Positions 53,390 through 60,544 of a DNA stretch of 64,000 bases are shown in pieces. The position numbers and the translations under genes were made by a program. Each line of letters starts with the position of its first letter. Within the stretch, counting starts at the first letter, position 1. The notes under the pieces were generated by a model. The model ran no database searches, was not told the DNA's origin, and saw nothing but the letters and a program-made list of their open reading frames with translations. The stretch spans positions 1,860,001 through 1,924,000 of the forward strand of contig NZ_CP007030.1 in NCBI RefSeq assembly GCF_000227665.2, given 5' to 3'. Source of the DNA: Thiomicrospira aerophila AL3. GTDB taxonomy: Bacteria; Pseudomonadota; Gammaproteobacteria; Thiomicrospirales; Thiomicrospiraceae.

Positions 53390-53938
53390 ATGAAGCCTGC
53401 ATTTTTTCCGAACTATACGGTCAAAGATTACGAGATATGGGAGGGCGATTGGGAATTAATTGGCGGATTTCCGGTTGCCATGTCGCCTGCGCCGGTGATA
53501 AGTCATCAATATGTCAATGGTGCCTTCTTCCGCCATTTAGACGAACAACTTGAAAACTGTGCCAAGTGTCATCCACTACAGGAATCAGATTGGCGTATCT
53601 ATGACGATACTGTGGTACGCCCTGACACGGTGGTCGTATGCTATAAGCCCGACAAGTTTTTAACTAAGCGCCCGGAACTGATTATCGAAGTACTCTCCCC
53701 TTCGACGGCACGCCTAGATGAAACCACCAAACTTGAACTCTATCAAACCGAAGGGGTGCCTTATTACATTTTGGTTGACCCAACAAAACTGATCGCCAAG
53801 GTTTATCAGCTTAAGGATGGTCGCTACATTAAAGTGAATGATTTTATTGATGGTCAGTGCCCTATCGAACTGAGTGACTGTGCATTTGAATTGGATTTTG
53901 GTTTAGTGTTTGACCGCGTGCGTAAAGCACTGGATTAA
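53390..53938 (+). CDS. Uma2-family putative endonuclease (DUF820)
   Basis: 182 residues with a restriction-endonuclease-like core: DDTVVRPDTVVVCY, then LIIEVLSPSTARLDETTKLELYQTEGVPYYILVDP, giving the Asp...Glu-x-Leu residues of the Uma2 fold. Members are numerous in cyanobacteria and some proteobacteria; role unknown, possibly mobile or selfish. CAAGGAGTCGCC precedes the ATG. Genes downstream begin in the same orientation after 16 bp. Confidence 0.87.
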   Translation: MKPAFFPNYTVKDYEIWEGDWELIGGFPVAMSPAPVISHQYVNGAFFRHLDEQLENCAKCHPLQESDWRIYDDTVVRPDTVVVCYKPDKFLTKRPELIIEVLSPSTARLDETTKLELYQTEGVPYYILVDPTKLIAKVYQLKDGRYIKVNDFIDGQCPIELSDCAFELDFGLVFDRVRKALD

Positions 53939-56396: not shown

Positions 56397-56660
56397 ATTA
56401 CCGAAACTCTCCTCGATAATCAAGACCATGACAGTCCGTGGAAAGAAGCCTTAGAGCTGCGTTTTCCAGAGTTTTTAGCGCTACTATTTCCAAATGTATT
56501 TGCCCTCATTGACTGGCAGCGCGAAGTGACTTTTTTAGATGGGCAAAGCCACTGGGTGCTGATTCATGTTGAGGTGCAAGGTGAGCCGGAAGTGGATTTT
56601 GCGGAGAGGATGTTTAAATACAACTACCGTATTCGTAATAAATACGCCAAGGATGTCATT
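56397..56660 (+). pseudogene. Decayed Rpn-family nuclease gene
   Basis: Matches the 5' part of the two intact rpn copies downstream. Three lesions are seen. The start codon is ATT (56397-56399) where the others have ATG. An in-frame 81-bp deletion has joined two TTTTTTAGAT direct repeats, removing 27 codons that include the catalytic Asp (residue 66 of the intact protein). The 3' two thirds are missing: homology stops after GATGTCATT and runs straight into a REP-like repeat, with a stop at 56685. The promoter-like TATAAT (56359-56364) and TAGGCCTG before the start are retained. Confidence 0.85.
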
Positions 56661-56780
56661 TTAGTGGTGGCACTGCGTTCGCAATGACAGGTCGCGTCAT
56701 CGCGAGGCCGGAGGCCGTGGCGATCTTGAGATGGCTTCGCGGCGCTCGCCATGACGGGGGTTGGGTTCGCAATGACGGAG
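56661..56780. repeat. REP-like hairpin repeat, copy A
   Basis: Core 56695-56756 begins CGTCATCGCGAGGCCGGAGG and ends with the near-inverse CTCGCCATGACG, so it can fold into a long hairpin. Flanks hold further GCAATGAC ends. Repeats of this type (GTCATTGCGAG...CTCGCAATGAC) are dispersed in many bacterial genomes. Confidence 0.75.
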
Positions 56781-56813: not shown

Positions 56814-57056
56814 CTAAGAGAAAAGGAATTTGCCAACTAAGGCAAGTAATGCTGCAGTATTAATCGCTAGTATCCATTGCAAAAAGGTGATCTTAATATC
56901 CACTTTGTCGATTTTGTAGTCCAAATAGTCTTTGCTGACGATACCATCATGTGCTTTTGCTATCGCTCTAACAATGGCTTCGGCCTGCTCGGGCGGAATG
57001 TTAGTTTTTTTAAGAATATCAGTCAGCTCAAGTTTATCAAATGTAATAATCGACAT
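56814..57056 (-). CDS. Small DUF1640-like single-TM protein, paralogue 1
   Basis: 80 residues. The N-terminal helical part (ILKKTNIPPEQAEAIVRAIAKAHD) and a C-terminal TM helix (about 60-78) resemble short DUF1640/coiled-coil proteins. A related gene sits at 58.4-58.7 kb with the same layout. Start set at 57056 because GGAG lies 7 nt upstream; the frame is open to 57083. Oriented against the rpn genes. Function unknown; possible membrane-linked partner of the nuclease by repeated adjacency. Confidence 0.72.
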   Translation of the reverse strand: MSIITFDKLELTDILKKTNIPPEQAEAIVRAIAKAHDGIVSKDYLDYKIDKVDIKITFLQWILAINTAALLALVGKFLFS

Positions 57057-57199
57057 AATAGACTCCAACAAACTAATTACCAATAGTAATCATATCACAA
57101 AACTAAAACTCAAAATTTTCCTATACCTCTAATTATTGCGCAGAAATGCAAATAGACGATAAGCTATTTGGCAGGTCAGTTTTTGCCGGAGGCCGCTGG

Positions 57200-57280
57200 T
57201 GTCATCGCGAGGCCGGAGGCCGTGGCGATCTCCTTCAGACGTACTCGGCAAGAGATGGCTTCGCGGCGCTCGCCATGACG
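57200..57280. repeat. REP-like hairpin repeat, copy B
   Basis: Starts TGTCATCGCGAGGCCGGAGG and ends CTCGCCATGACG, about 18 bp longer in the loop than copy A. It lies in the gene-free stretch 57057-57464, whose remaining part is the duplicated upstream region of the rpn gene. Confidence 0.75.
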
Positions 57281-57464
57281 GGGGAAGGATTATCATAAAA
57301 AAATGACGAGCAGCCTGTAGGTTAATAGCGACAGTAAGCTGGGTGAAATTGCATTGAAGCGTTTTGGCTTTAAACCCTAGCGGCGCTGCAGACAACTTAA
57401 AGCTTATAATTTTAAGTAAAATAACGTATAATTATTACCAGTCAATCTTTATACCAGGCCTGCT

Positions 57465-58370
57465 ATGACCGAAACTCTCCTCGATAATCAAGACCACGAC
57501 AGTCCGTGGAAAGAAGCCTTAGAGCTGCGTTTTCCAGAGTTTTTAGCGCTACTATTTCCAAATGTATTTGCCCTCATTGACTGGCAGCGCGAAGTGACTT
57601 TTTTAGATAAGGAATTGCAAAAAATTCTGCCCAATGCCCAGAATGGGCGCACCTATGCCGATAAATTAGTTCAAGTCTATTTTTTGAATGGGCAAAGCCA
57701 CTGGGTGCTGATTCATGTCGAGGTGCAAGGTGAGCCAGAGGTGGATTTTGCAAAACGCATGTATCGTTATAATTATCGCATTCAAGACAAATATGATAAG
57801 GATGTCATTAGCCTCGCTGTGCTGACTGATACGCATAAAAATTTTCGACCCAGTTGCTACGAATTCACGCTTGGCGGTTGTCGTATTCTGTTTGAATTCC
57901 CAATGGTTAAACTCTTAGACTGGCAGGACCGTCTCGACGAGCTGCACCATAGCGATAACGTCTTTGCGTTAATTGTGGCGGCGCAACTTCATGCAAAACT
58001 AAATAAACAGCCCGCACAAAAATTCGATGCCAAGATTCGTTTAACTCGCTTACTCTATCAGCGTGGTTACGAAAAAGTTCAGGTAATCGAGCTTTTGCGT
58101 CTTATTGACTGGATGATTACCTTACCGCATAATTTAGAAATTCAATGTAAACAAATCGTTGACCAGATTGAGGAGGAACAGCAGATGGCTTACATGACTT
58201 CAATGGAACGCATCGCCATGCAAGAAGGCCGGCTTGAGGGTAAACTTGAAATGGCTTTGAAAATGATTAACCGCTTTAATTTAAGCGTTAAAGAGGCGGC
58301 TGAAGAAGCTAGTGTTTCAGTCAATGATTTGATGGATTACCTCAAAAAACACGAGCAACCTAAACAGTAA
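57465..58370 (+). CDS. Rpn-family recombination-promoting nuclease, copy 1
   Basis: 301 residues. PD-(D/E)XK-like core: Asp66 in TYADKLVQVYF and the Glu86-x-Gln88 of HWVLIHVEVQGEPE, the variant seen in the Rpn (YhgA-like/PD-(D/E)XK transposase) family, whose E. coli members cut DNA and raise recombination. Residues about 190-301 are helical. An internal AGGAGG (58171-58176) sits 8 nt before an in-frame ATG (58185), suggesting a separate C-terminal product. The residues after the LEGKLE motif (about 263-290) differ from copy 2, while the rest is nearly identical. Initiation signal is weak; CAGGCCTG-CT-ATG precedes the gene. Confidence 0.85.
   Translation: MTETLLDNQDHDSPWKEALELRFPEFLALLFPNVFALIDWQREVTFLDKELQKILPNAQNGRTYADKLVQVYFLNGQSHWVLIHVEVQGEPEVDFAKRMYRYNYRIQDKYDKDVISLAVLTDTHKNFRPSCYEFTLGGCRILFEFPMVKLLDWQDRLDELHHSDNVFALIVAAQLHAKLNKQPAQKFDAKIRLTRLLYQRGYEKVQVIELLRLIDWMITLPHNLEIQCKQIVDQIEEEQQMAYMTSMERIAMQEGRLEGKLEMALKMINRFNLSVKEAAEEASVSVNDLMDYLKKHEQPKQ
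58185..58370 (+). CDS. Predicted internal in-frame C-terminal product of rpn copy 1 (RpnS-like)
   Basis: 61 residues starting MAYMTSMERIAMQEGRLEGK and sharing the stop codon of the full gene. The AGGAGG-8 nt-ATG signal is much stronger than that of the full-length gene. In E. coli, RpnS proteins made from internal starts in rpn genes bind and inhibit the nuclease; an equivalent role here is inference from that known case. One LEGK unit is present. Confidence 0.5.
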   Translation: MAYMTSMERIAMQEGRLEGKLEMALKMINRFNLSVKEAAEEASVSVNDLMDYLKKHEQPKQ

Positions 58371-58395
58371 CTTATTTCGCCTATGCTAACCACCA

Positions 58396-58423
58396 CGCCC
58401 CGCTTTGGGGCGTTGTTGTTTTT
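58396..58423 (+). terminator. Terminator after rpn copy 1
   Basis: CGCCCC-GCTTT-GGGGCG followed by TTGTTGTTTTT. The same hairpin follows all three 3' ends in the cluster. Confidence 0.85.
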
Positions 58424-58444
58424 AAGGACTAAGGGCGTAGGCTG

Positions 58445-58660
58445 TTACGCAAAAAACAACTTATAAAGAATTGCCATGGTAAAAGCGAGATTAAACGCCA
58501 CCATCCATTTGAGCAAAAGCATTTCAGACTTTAGGGTTTGAATATCGGCTTTACTTGCCAGGCTCTCATCAACGATTGCCTTTGCTGCTGCAACAGCTTG
58601 CTCGTCAGGAACACCCGCTTTTTTAAACGCATTATAAACTTCAATATTCATTGTGCTCAT
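58445..58660 (-). CDS. Small DUF1640-like single-TM protein, paralogue 2
   Basis: 71 residues: helical N-terminus (EVYNAFKKAGVPDEQAVAAAKAIVDESLASKADIQ) and a C-terminal TM helix (about 48-68). Layout matches the 56.8-kb gene, with sequence diverged. GGAG lies 9 nt before the ATG. It sits between the two rpn copies on the opposite strand. Confidence 0.72.
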   Translation of the reverse strand: MSTMNIEVYNAFKKAGVPDEQAVAAAKAIVDESLASKADIQTLKSEMLLLKWMVAFNLAFTMAILYKLFFA

Positions 58661-58871
58661 TTATAGAACTCCAGAAACACTCCAATAGCATCATTCTATC
58701 ATAAAGTAAATGACGAGCAGCCTGTAGGTTAATAGCGACAGTAAGCTAGGTGAAATTGCATTGAAGCGTTTTGGCTTTAAACCTTAGCAGCGCTGCAGAC
58801 AACTTAAAGCTTATAATTTTAAGTAAAATAACGTATAATTATTACCAGTCAATCCTTATACCAGGCCTGCT

Positions 58872-59789
58872 ATGACCGACCCCCTACTCGATAATCAAGA
58901 CCATGACAGTCCGTGGAAAGAAGCCTTGGAACTGCGTTTTCCCGAGTTTTTAGCGCTGTTATTTCCAAATGTATTTGCCCTCATTGACTGGCAGCGCGAA
59001 GTGACTTTTTTAGATAAGGAATTGCAAAAAATTCTGCCCAATGCCCAGAATGGGCGCACCTATGCCGATAAATTAGTTCAAGTCTATTTTTTAGATGGGC
59101 AAAGCCACTGGGTGCTGATTCATGTTGAGGTGCAAGGTGAGCCGGAAGTGGATTTTGCGGAGAGGATGTTTAAATACAACTACCGTATTCGTGATAAATA
59201 CGCCAAAGATGTCATTAGCCTCGCTGTGCTGACTGATACGCATAAAAATTTTCGACCCAGTTGCTACGAATTCACGCTTGGCGGTTGTCGTATTCTGTTT
59301 GAATTCCCAATGGTTAAACTCTTAGACTGGCAGGACCGTCTCGACGAGCTGCACCATAGCGATAACGTCTTTGCGTTAATTGTGGCGGCGCAACTTCATG
59401 CAAAACTAAATAAACAGCCCGCACAAAAATTCGATGCCAAGATTCGTTTAACTCGCTTACTCTATCAGCGTGGTTACGAAAAAGTTCAGGTAATCGAGCT
59501 TTTGCGTCTTATTGACTGGATGATTACCTTACCGCATAATTTAGAAATTCAATGTAAACAAATCGTTGACCAGATTGAGGAGGAACAGCAGATGGCTTAC
59601 ATGACTTCAATGGAACGCATCGCCATGCAAGAAGGCCGGCTTGAGGGTAAACTTGAGGGTAAACTTGAAGCCGCGCAAACGATGGTTAGAGATTTTGGCA
59701 TTTCAGTTAAAGATGCCGCGACCAAGCTAAAAGTACCGCTTGACGATCTGGTCGATTACCTCAAAAAACACGAGCAACCTAAACAATAA
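58872..59789 (+). CDS. Rpn-family recombination-promoting nuclease, copy 2
   Basis: 305 residues, nearly identical to copy 1 over about 1-262 except the first residues (MTDPLL) and a small cluster of changes around residues 97-110 (ERMFKYNYRIRDKYAK). The catalytic Asp66 and Glu86-x-Gln88 are kept. Two LEGK repeats precede a tail (AAQTMVRDFGISVKDAATKL) unlike that of copy 1 but equal to that of the free-standing fragment downstream. Internal AGGAGG (59578-59583) and ATG (59592) as in copy 1. TATAAT at 58834-58839 and CAGGCCTG just before the ATG. Confidence 0.85.
   Translation: MTDPLLDNQDHDSPWKEALELRFPEFLALLFPNVFALIDWQREVTFLDKELQKILPNAQNGRTYADKLVQVYFLDGQSHWVLIHVEVQGEPEVDFAERMFKYNYRIRDKYAKDVISLAVLTDTHKNFRPSCYEFTLGGCRILFEFPMVKLLDWQDRLDELHHSDNVFALIVAAQLHAKLNKQPAQKFDAKIRLTRLLYQRGYEKVQVIELLRLIDWMITLPHNLEIQCKQIVDQIEEEQQMAYMTSMERIAMQEGRLEGKLEGKLEAAQTMVRDFGISVKDAATKLKVPLDDLVDYLKKHEQPKQ
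59592..59789 (+). CDS. Predicted internal in-frame C-terminal product of rpn copy 2 (RpnS-like)
   Basis: 65 residues beginning MAYMTSMERI and ending with the full gene. It carries two LEGK units and the second tail type. AGGAGG lies 8 nt before the ATG. Role by analogy to RpnS. Confidence 0.5.
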   Translation: MAYMTSMERIAMQEGRLEGKLEGKLEAAQTMVRDFGISVKDAATKLKVPLDDLVDYLKKHEQPKQ

Positions 59790-59814
59790 CTTATTTCGCC
59801 TATGCTAACCACCA

Positions 59815-59842
59815 CGCCCCGCTTTGGGGCGTTGTTGTTTTA
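59815..59842 (+). terminator. Terminator after rpn copy 2
   Basis: CGCCCC-GCTTT-GGGGCG followed by TTGTTGTTTT. Confidence 0.85.
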
Positions 59843-59936
59843 GTTGGCACTGCGCTTTGACTGGATGATTACCTTACCGCATAATTTAGACATCGAATTT
59901 AAAATCCTTGTTGACCAGATTGAGGAGGAACAACAA

Positions 59937-60158
59937 ATGGCCTATGTCACATCTGTAGAACGCATCGCCATGCAAGAAGGCAGGCTTGAGGGTAAACTTG
60001 AGGGTAAACTTGAGGGTAAACTTGAGGGTAAACTTGAAGCCGCGCAAACGATGGTTAGAGATTTTGGCATTTCAGTTAAAGATGCCGCGACCAAGCTAAA
60101 AGTACCGCTTGACGATCTGGTCGATTACCTCAAAAAACACGAGCAACCCAAACAGTAA
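59937..60158 (+). CDS. Free-standing C-terminal fragment of an rpn gene (RpnS-like gene)
   Basis: 73 residues: MAYVTSVERIAMQEGRLEGK, four LEGK units, then the copy-2 tail ending HEQPKQ. It equals the part of the rpn genes downstream of their internal start, and AGGAGG (59923-59928) precedes the ATG by 8 nt. The nuclease part is absent; homology starts at GACTGGATGATT (about 59857) after a junction with REP-like sequence GGCACTGCG. The frame is open from a TTG at 59844, but the internal-type signal is stronger. Could be a decoy antitoxin or a decaying remnant; the open frame and signal favour expression. Confidence 0.6.
   Translation: MAYVTSVERIAMQEGRLEGKLEGKLEGKLEGKLEAAQTMVRDFGISVKDAATKLKVPLDDLVDYLKKHEQPKQ
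59985..60032 (+). repeat. 12-bp tandem repeat (CTTGAGGGTAAA) x4
   Basis: Four exact units in the free-standing fragment. The same unit occurs twice in rpn copy 2 (59640-59663) and once in copy 1 (58233-58244). Each adds Leu-Glu-Gly-Lys in frame. Confidence 0.92.
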
Positions 60159-60183
60159 CTTATTTCACCTGTGCTGACCATCA

Positions 60184-60210
60184 CGCCCCGCTTTGGGGCG
60201 TTTTAGTTTT
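60184..60210 (+). terminator. Terminator after the rpn 3' fragment
   Basis: CGCCCC-GCTTT-GGGGCG followed by TTTTAGTTTT; it is also the beginning of the 167-bp tandem duplication. Confidence 0.75.
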
Positions 60211-60519
60211 AGTTGTGGCACTGCGTTTGCAATGACAGGACGTGTCGTCGCGAGGCCGGAGGCCGTGGCGATCTCTGGAGATTGCTTCGCGGTGTTCGCA
60301 ATGACGGGGGGAGGTGCGCAATGACGGGGGGAAGGGTTGTGGAATAAAAAAACCCCGCTTTGGGGCGTTTTAGTTTTAGTTGTGGCACTGCGTTTGCAAT
60401 GACAGGACGTGTCGTCGCGAGGCCGGAGGCCGTGGCGATCTCTGGAGATTGCTTCGCGGTGTTCGCAATGACGGAGGGAGGTGCGCAATGACGGGGGGAA
60501 GGGTTGCGGAATAAAAAAA
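60186..60519. repeat. Two tandem 167-bp units containing a REP-like hairpin
   Basis: Unit 1 (60186-60352) and unit 2 (60353-60519) differ by two bases. Each holds the terminator hairpin, a REP-like element (GTCGTCGCGAGGCCGGAGGC ... GTTCGCAATGACG) and the stretch GGAATAAAAAAA. The duplication fills the gene-free stretch between the rpn fragment and the porin; ORFs read through it are artefacts of the repeat. Confidence 0.9.
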
Positions 60520-60544
60520 CCCCGCTTTGTGGGCGGGGTTTTTT
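60513..60544 (-). terminator. Terminator of the porin gene
   Basis: AAAAAACCCCGC and GCGGGGTTTTTT arms around TTTGTGG, about 55 bp after the porin stop on the minus strand; sequence is bidirectional. Confidence 0.85.

Follow-up and report, generated by a model that had tools for sequence, protein, structure and literature searches.

Does each rpn gene of a cluster in Thiomicrospira aerophila AL3 encode two proteins, a full-length nuclease (RpnL) and a short C-terminal protein (RpnS) started separately within the same reading frame? The window analysed here is a 64-kb stretch (positions 1,860,001 to 1,924,000 of contig NZ_CP007030.1) of the 2.16-Mb single-contig genome, and between 56.4 and 60.2 kb it carries on the + strand, in this order, a 5′ rpn remnant, the full-length genes rpn1 and rpn2, and a 3′ fragment. 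The sequence makes it probable, and we hold this with good confidence, that these genes form a divergent gene-within-gene toxin–antitoxin array of the Rpn (RpnL/RpnS) kind. The RpnL/RpnS mechanism, with its arrays and solitary RpnS copies, is already in print (PMC10327210); what appears to be new here is the clade-wide conservation of the internal start, a predicted lineage-restricted promoter before each internal start, and the putative exchange of C-terminal cassettes.

Internal start signals and their conservation

On both strands of the window, AGGAGG followed after 5–9 nt by ATG occurs in exactly three places (58171, 59578 and 59923), always in frame inside an rpn copy and at a spacing of exactly 8 nt. 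Among 426 internal in-frame ATG codons, from 52 open reading frames (ORFs) of at least 100 amino acids (aa), three have AGGAGG in reach, and all three are rpn. The full-length starts of rpn1 and rpn2 are preceded by just AGG, 6 nt before the ATG, and in both genes pairing with the anti-Shine–Dalgarno sequence is −2.5 kcal/mol at the best candidate full-length start as against −11.2 kcal/mol at the internal start. The original prediction, which had described AGGAGG 8 nt before an in-frame ATG in rpn1, rpn2 and the 3′ fragment, together with weak signals at the full-length starts, was right in both respects, coordinates and lengths included. Having arisen by duplication, the three copies do not count as separate cases, so the independent evidence is conservation in relatives.

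These relatives came from a scan of genome contigs with an alignment of ten close relatives, from which the best 79 of at least 502 loci were kept; judged by record title, their sources include Gammaproteobacteria, cyanobacteria, Chloroflexi, Planctomycetota and Desulfobacteraceae. Another 16 copies, picked from the window's own family, brought the clade set to 95 genes, of which 87 were counted, the window's two included; four duplicates (L038, L039, L040, L049) and four loci whose scanned frame does not contain the motif (L023, L046, L080, L112) were left out. The codons 5′ of the conserved Met were replaced at random by synonyms, drawn according to each gene's own codon usage, and AGGAG, GGAGG or GAGGA was taken as a Shine–Dalgarno (SD) core. 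A core stands before the same Met/Val codon in 81 of the 87 genes, where this synonymous resampling gives 43.2 (P 4.5e-24 on the assumption of independent genes). To allow for relatedness, the genes were also clustered by identity, which gave 41/46 observed against 21.7 expected at <70%, 27/30 against 14.3 at <60%, 17/18 against 8.3 at <55% (P 1.4e-6), 9/9 against 4.9 at <50% (P 0.0018) and 5/5 against 2.6 at <45% (P 0.028).

The Glu codon at −4 is GAG in 75 of 77 cases, as compared with 1117 of 2478 Glu codons elsewhere in the same genes, and 1249 control positions able to hold an SD core are depleted of it (308 observed, 489 expected). The signal is also kept over differing residues, with IQEEK written as CAGGAGG, IEQEK as CAGGAG and YEKEQ as AAGGAG. 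Counting weak cores, an SD-like core lies 6–10 nt from the Met/Val codon in every one of the 87 genes; 84 genes have ATG there and three have GTG (two of them near-identical paralogues), so that Val in place of Met is always encoded by GTG. The Glu-Glu pair before Met was considered as the force behind the SD and rejected as the whole cause, synonymous resampling yielding about half the observed number, while chance origin is ruled out by the three-only occurrence in the window together with the resampling excess in the clade. The internal Shine–Dalgarno sequence is, on these sequence comparisons, under selection across the clade. This is evolutionary evidence beyond E. coli, pointing to selection that keeps the Rpn internal start in Gammaproteobacteria, cyanobacteria and Chloroflexi.

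The relative strength of the two starts was compared after truncated or over-extended ORFs had been set aside, which left 79 of the 87 genes; a start could be assigned in all but three of these, giving 76 for the comparison. Mean anti-SD pairing in these is −3.9 kcal/mol at the best candidate full-length start and −9.1 kcal/mol at the internal one, and the internal SD outdoes the best full-length candidate in 66. With the internal signals the stronger, the short protein is predicted to be more abundant than the full-length one, a prediction that the signals support.

Transcription may begin inside the genes as well. Between 56.3 and 60.6 kb the highest-scoring promoter-like matches are the three occurrences of TTGACT-17 nt-CATAAT at 58105, 59512 and 59857, which agree with 10 of 12 consensus positions and whose −10 box ends 51 nt 5′ of the internal ATG; the total of such matches in this region is nine, not above shuffles (6.9, standard deviation 2.8). 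Within the window's family a promoter-like site is present in 11 of 15 copies (the window's two included), reaching p ≤ 0.05 by synonymous resampling in five of the 15. A universal intragenic promoter is not supported, the excess being confined to copies of this family. For E. coli, an internal transcription start has been reported in each of the five rpn genes (PMC10327210), and a putative lineage-restricted sigma70-like promoter preceding each internal start is an addition to that published picture.

Putative nuclease bodies and C-terminal cassettes

The window rpn proteins have no significant match in Pfam, PF04754 included, and score 28.8 bits (rpn1) and 35.3 bits (rpn2) against the NCBIfam model TIGR01784 (Rpn family), below its cut-off of 52.1 bits. 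Across 79 proteins (77 clade genes and the two window genes), TIGR01784 matches 50 and PF04754 matches 12 at E ≤ 0.001, and DUF4351, a name used in PMC10327210 for some separate RpnS proteins, matches 23. Other members of the clade thus bridge to both Rpn models, which bears out the earlier suggestion of a distantly related Rpn type. The residues D11, D63, E82, Q84 and R94 of E. coli RpnA, mutation of which altered RpnA phenotypes (PMC5350276), align in a weak profile alignment (E 0.0033) with D12, D66, E86, Q88 and R98; in the same 79 sequences D66, E86 and R98 are invariant, and D12 and Q88 are at least 90% conserved.

The predicted structure of rpn2 (mean pLDDT 84.6) has a body that resembles a nuclease fold of the PD-(D/E)XK type. 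Residues 11–151 of the model match 2vld, a Pyrococcus repair endonuclease, and EndoMS with Z scores of 7.1–7.5, and residues 6–152 match Card1 with Z 6.4, all below the caution level of 8. The top Z score, 8.0, belongs to 9cc4 and covers helices 154–240 only. Residues 255–302 align with a portion of a serine recombinase (Z 4.7), and RpnS has been predicted to resemble a helix-turn-helix (PMC10327210). Among solved structures, a sequence search with the family profile gave nothing at E ≤ 1 and one with an RpnS profile only apparently unrelated chains (best E 0.1). The RpnA-S structure, Protein Data Bank entry 7TH0 (PMC10327210), was reached neither by sequence search nor among the structure-comparison matches listed, and its absence there excludes nothing.

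Behind the internal start the proteins are repetitive. When 14 RpnS of the window's family are aligned, the gaps of the repeat region come in steps of four residues, and across the clade a period of four or eight residues is seen in 38 of 87 RpnS and in none of 82 bodies. In the 37 genes for which a first repeat could be placed, it begins 10–19 residues behind the internal start; the published figure for E. coli is 8–20 residues after the internal Met (PMC10327210). Since one added repeat abolished matching in E. coli RpnC (PMC10327210), RpnS3, the product of the 3′ fragment, is predicted not to match RpnL2.

Considering next the origin of the C-terminal part, rpn1 and rpn2 share a 432-base identical run (57801–58232) that spans the end of the body, the promoter, the SD, the start and the first RpnS residues, after which, past a difference in the 12-nt repeat, identity falls to 29/60 and then 44/60 columns over 58248–58367 and returns to 56/60. 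Bodies and cassettes differ in opposite directions from pair to pair: identity is 96% in the body and 52% in the cassette for rpn1 and rpn2, 54% and 88% for rpn1 and L014, and 24% and 80% for L016 and L027, the latter a PF04754-type Rpn. In trees of ten copies, cassette data reject a clade of rpn1 and rpn2 in the approximately unbiased (AU) test (p-AU 0.00015) and body data reject one of rpn1 and L014 (p-AU 0.00005, for a pair chosen after seeing the identities). Cassette exchange is the simplest reading of these conflicting body and cassette trees. No description of it was met in the parts of PMC10327210 that were consulted, the supplements lying outside this statement, and the literature searched listed no other paper on RpnS/RpnL or DUF4351.

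We therefore put forward, tentatively and at somewhat under an even chance, that the genes are modular. Each would consist of a body ending in a promoter and ribosome-binding site, followed by a C-terminal specificity cassette that is swapped by recombination between near-identical bodies, and even between Rpn subfamilies, a swap giving an orthogonal pair. As both toxin and antitoxin carry the cassette, one swap would rewrite both in a single step, and would, if this modular reading is true, turn a neighbouring duplicate into an orthogonal pair immediately, with no toxic stage in between. The third copy, which stands alone and has the rpn2 cassette with two extra repeats, would then be a stand-alone antitoxin of altered specificity. 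The natural difference between the rpn1 and rpn2 cassettes is a ready-made test of toxin–antitoxin matching.

RpnS units also occur without a nuclease. From some 2 nt ahead of the −35 box onward, the third copy of the window is identical to rpn2 without a break, and so keeps promoter, SD, start, reading frame and terminator. The same genome has an RpnS-only copy about 12 kb from the array (L009 2987–3304, − strand; genome 1931986–1932303), in which GMQQ is repeated five times and the start codon is a GTG preceded by AAGGAG. Neither this copy nor the 5′ remnant figured in the original prediction. In L024, from another Thiomicrospira, the nuclease core has been lost in frame and an intact RpnS with AGGAGG is kept, and in Hydrogenovibrio halophilus (L023) a full gene is followed, 14 nt past its stop codon, by a solitary copy with a weak SD. 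The body frame is broken in L046 and L080, where the RpnS motif and SD core are present in another frame of the locus. The separate C-terminal proteins that had been predicted from the window are thus favoured by several lines of evidence, namely selection on the SD, stronger internal signals, RpnS-only copies (several with the same signals) and repeats placed as in known RpnS.

Interpretation, rival explanations and genomic setting

The proposed mechanism is as follows. The weak start of each full gene would yield a scarce PD-(D/E)XK-type nuclease, RpnL, and the internal promoter with its strong in-frame ribosome-binding site would yield many copies of the C-terminal oligomerisation domain, RpnS, of 61–73 aa. 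RpnS would bind the same domain within RpnL and hold it inactive, until stress, perhaps phage, upset the RpnS:RpnL ratio; the number of four-residue repeats and the C-terminal cassette would set which RpnS matches which RpnL. This interpretation is well supported by sequence up to, and excluding, inhibition and phage defence, both of which are carried over by analogy from E. coli.

A number of observations weigh against it. E. coli RpnA/RpnC are matched only weakly when profiles are compared (E 0.0033, probability 9.7%, 88 columns), and Foldseek with the rpn2 model gave no match at E ≤ 0.001 (best 0.027). The other 72 clade genes have no excess of intragenic promoters (3/72 at p ≤ 0.05, mean z −0.03), 49 of 87 RpnS are without a short-period repeat at the threshold used, and in 10 of the 76 genes compared a candidate full-length start has the stronger SD. 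That the start codon is conserved is in part a product of the method, Met/Val being counted in the motif score by which the site is placed. Six genes have no SD core (L015, L084, L090, L095, L107, L115), among them all three Planctomycetota of the set (L084, L090, L095), two of which have GGGAG. Single genes reach p ≤ 0.05 in the synonymous energy test in 12 of 87 cases only, since Glu-Glu already favours G-rich codons, so the strength of the SD test resides in the whole set. One intact relative, L112 (a Chloroflexi metagenome-assembled genome), is without Met at the homologous place. In L112, GGAGG stands 8 nt 5′ of another in-frame ATG, at codon 252 of the open frame and 12 codons further 5′, which looks like a displaced internal start.

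The internal SD could be real and yet serve to pause the ribosome between body and C-terminal domain, aiding folding rather than initiation. The site does lie at a domain boundary in the rpn2 model, where helix 222–238 ends just before residue 241 and a long helix, 246–275, follows, but the 6–10-nt spacing to a Met/Val codon in 87/87 genes, the invariable use of GTG for Val (3/3) and the promoter, SD and start retained in the solitary window copy make pausing a very improbable account. It is also rather unlikely that short products are made as structural subunits of a nuclease complex, like Cas11d in type I-D Cascade, instead of as inhibitors; such genes-within-genes are known (described in PMC10327210), but RpnS blocks RpnL in the tested E. 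coli relatives (PMC10327210), and the catalytic residues, the position of the repeats and the C-terminal placement all agree with the E. coli case.

That the cluster is decaying, selfish or neutral debris, duplicated at short repeats and of no present function, would suit the 5′ remnant, whose internal deletion removes the aspartate aligned with RpnA D63, the 3′ fragment, the orphan copy elsewhere, and the presence of matches in only 10 of 62 family genomes. It would suit the neighbourhood too, as no clear defence genes, and no clear defence island, were seen among the ten flanking proteins scanned; against PADLOC these match only Uma2-type (PDC-S03), small methyltransferase (mad2) and UvrD-type helicase (GajB, RTasHel) models, and the methyltransferase and helicase are probably housekeeping. 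Debris is nevertheless an improbable explanation, since both full-length genes are open and retain their catalytic residues, internal promoters, SDs and terminators, and the SD is selected across the clade; the toxin–antitoxin array remains our preferred one.

The features of the array are collected in the table. Of the expansion into a tandem array that had been proposed for this locus, the array itself is present, but it is not new as such, rpn arrays being already described in PMC10327210.

Table. Annotated and predicted features of the rpn array (window coordinates)
Feature	Position	Strand	Remarks
5′ remnant of fourth rpn copy (pseudogene)	56397..56687	+	internal deletion; start codon non-standard; repeat sequence in place of the 3′ end
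rpn1, full-length RpnL, 301 aa, putative PD-(D/E)XK-type nuclease body	57465..58370	+	conserved residues; fold predicted for rpn2
sigma70-like intragenic promoter in rpn1 (predicted), TTGACT-17-CATAAT	58105..58133	+	−10 box end to internal ATG, 51 nt
internal Shine–Dalgarno AGGAGG of rpnS1	58171..58176	+	
predicted RpnS1, 61 aa, internal ATG 58185	58185..58370	+	cassette type A; unlike rpn2 over 58251–58334
intrinsic-terminator-like hairpin 3′ of rpn1	58395..58413	+	
rpn2, full-length RpnL, 305 aa	58872..59789	+	432 bp identical to rpn1 (rpn1 57801–58232)
intragenic promoter of rpnS2 (predicted), TTGACT-17-CATAAT	59512..59540	+	
internal Shine–Dalgarno AGGAGG of rpnS2	59578..59583	+	
predicted RpnS2, 65 aa, internal ATG 59592	59592..59789	+	cassette type B
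12-nt repeat CTTGAGGGTAAA, in rpn2	59640..59668	+	2.4 copies; encodes 4-aa repeat LEGK
terminator-like hairpin 3′ of rpn2	59814..59832	+	
solitary 3′ copy (rpnS3 unit)	59844..60158	+	unbroken rpn2 identity from ~2 nt 5′ of −35 box
promoter of solitary copy (predicted), TTGACT-17-CATAAT	59857..59885	+	
Shine–Dalgarno AGGAGG of rpnS3	59923..59928	+	
predicted RpnS3, 73 aa, internal ATG 59937	59937..60158	+	rpn2-like cassette type B and two extra 4-aa repeats
12-nt repeat CTTGAGGGTAAA, in third copy	59985..60037	+	4.4 copies
terminator-like hairpin 3′ of rpnS3	60183..60201	+	

Repetitive extragenic palindromic (REP)-like repeats (TCATCGCGAGGCCGGAGGCCGTGGCGATCT...) surround the rpn units at 60186–60535, 56659–56767 and 57164–57291, and include a 167-bp unit present 2.1 times; a TTTTAG..TGGCACTGCG sequence, of the kind adjoining these repeats, is found at the 3′ end of the remnant and the 5′ end of the solitary copy. 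Two small related antisense ORFs lie beside the rpn copies (56814–57056 and 58445–58660, both − strand; 80 and 71 aa) and have, by eye, an apparent C-terminal membrane helix. They were considered as a third component; in nine genomes of the genus, homologues stand beside an rpn copy in three of ten places (one beside L024), and the other seven are not near any listed rpn place, which speaks against a general link. The Uma2-type putative endonuclease (53390–53938, + strand), which matches the PADLOC candidate PDC-S03, lies about 2.5 kb upstream of the rpn remnant, and rpn1 itself has a weak PADLOC match to HEC-01B (E 0.0037) in its C-terminal part only.

Beyond the family, none of 50,697 phage records matches the clade. 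Of 72,556 plasmid records 65 do, and judged by genus name at least 53 of these are cyanobacterial. The related stretches from the contig scan, at least 502 in number, and the plasmid genes of this body annotated as 'DUF4351' or 'cytosolic protein' become testable toxin–antitoxin candidates.

Relation to known Rpn systems

The closest parallel is the RpnL/RpnS system of E. coli (RpnA-E and RpnP2; Zhong et al. 2023 preprint, PMC10327210), in which a full-length PD-(D/E)XK-type nuclease is paired with a separately started C-terminal protein and transcription also starts internally, as is predicted for the window genes. Common to both are 4-aa (12-nt) repeats a short way into RpnS, the arrangement in arrays, and separate downstream rpnS genes. 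The window system differs in that its nuclease bodies are too divergent for PF04754, in that near-identical neighbouring bodies bear different C-terminal cassettes, and in being known from sequence alone.

Two further comparisons place the cassette and the body in other company. The YhgA-like/Transposase_31 (PF04754) gene L027, from a genome of the same genus, has a cassette 80% identical to that of the clade member L016 and AAGGAG 6 nt 5′ of an in-frame ATG at codon 291 of its open frame, whereas its body, which matches PF04754 at E 1e-29, is 24% identical to that of L016. Conversely, the cyanobacterial plasmid genes L148 (Synechococcus elongatus UTEX 3055) and L149 (Nostoc sp. MS1), of the DUF4351/'cytosolic protein' kind, have the same nuclease body (45.8% and 46.0% identity) and a C-terminal domain of another type; L148 shares the internal signal, with CAGGAG 6 nt 5′ of an ATG at codon 242, while in L149 GGAGG stands at a poorer spacing, 11 nt 5′ of the ATG.

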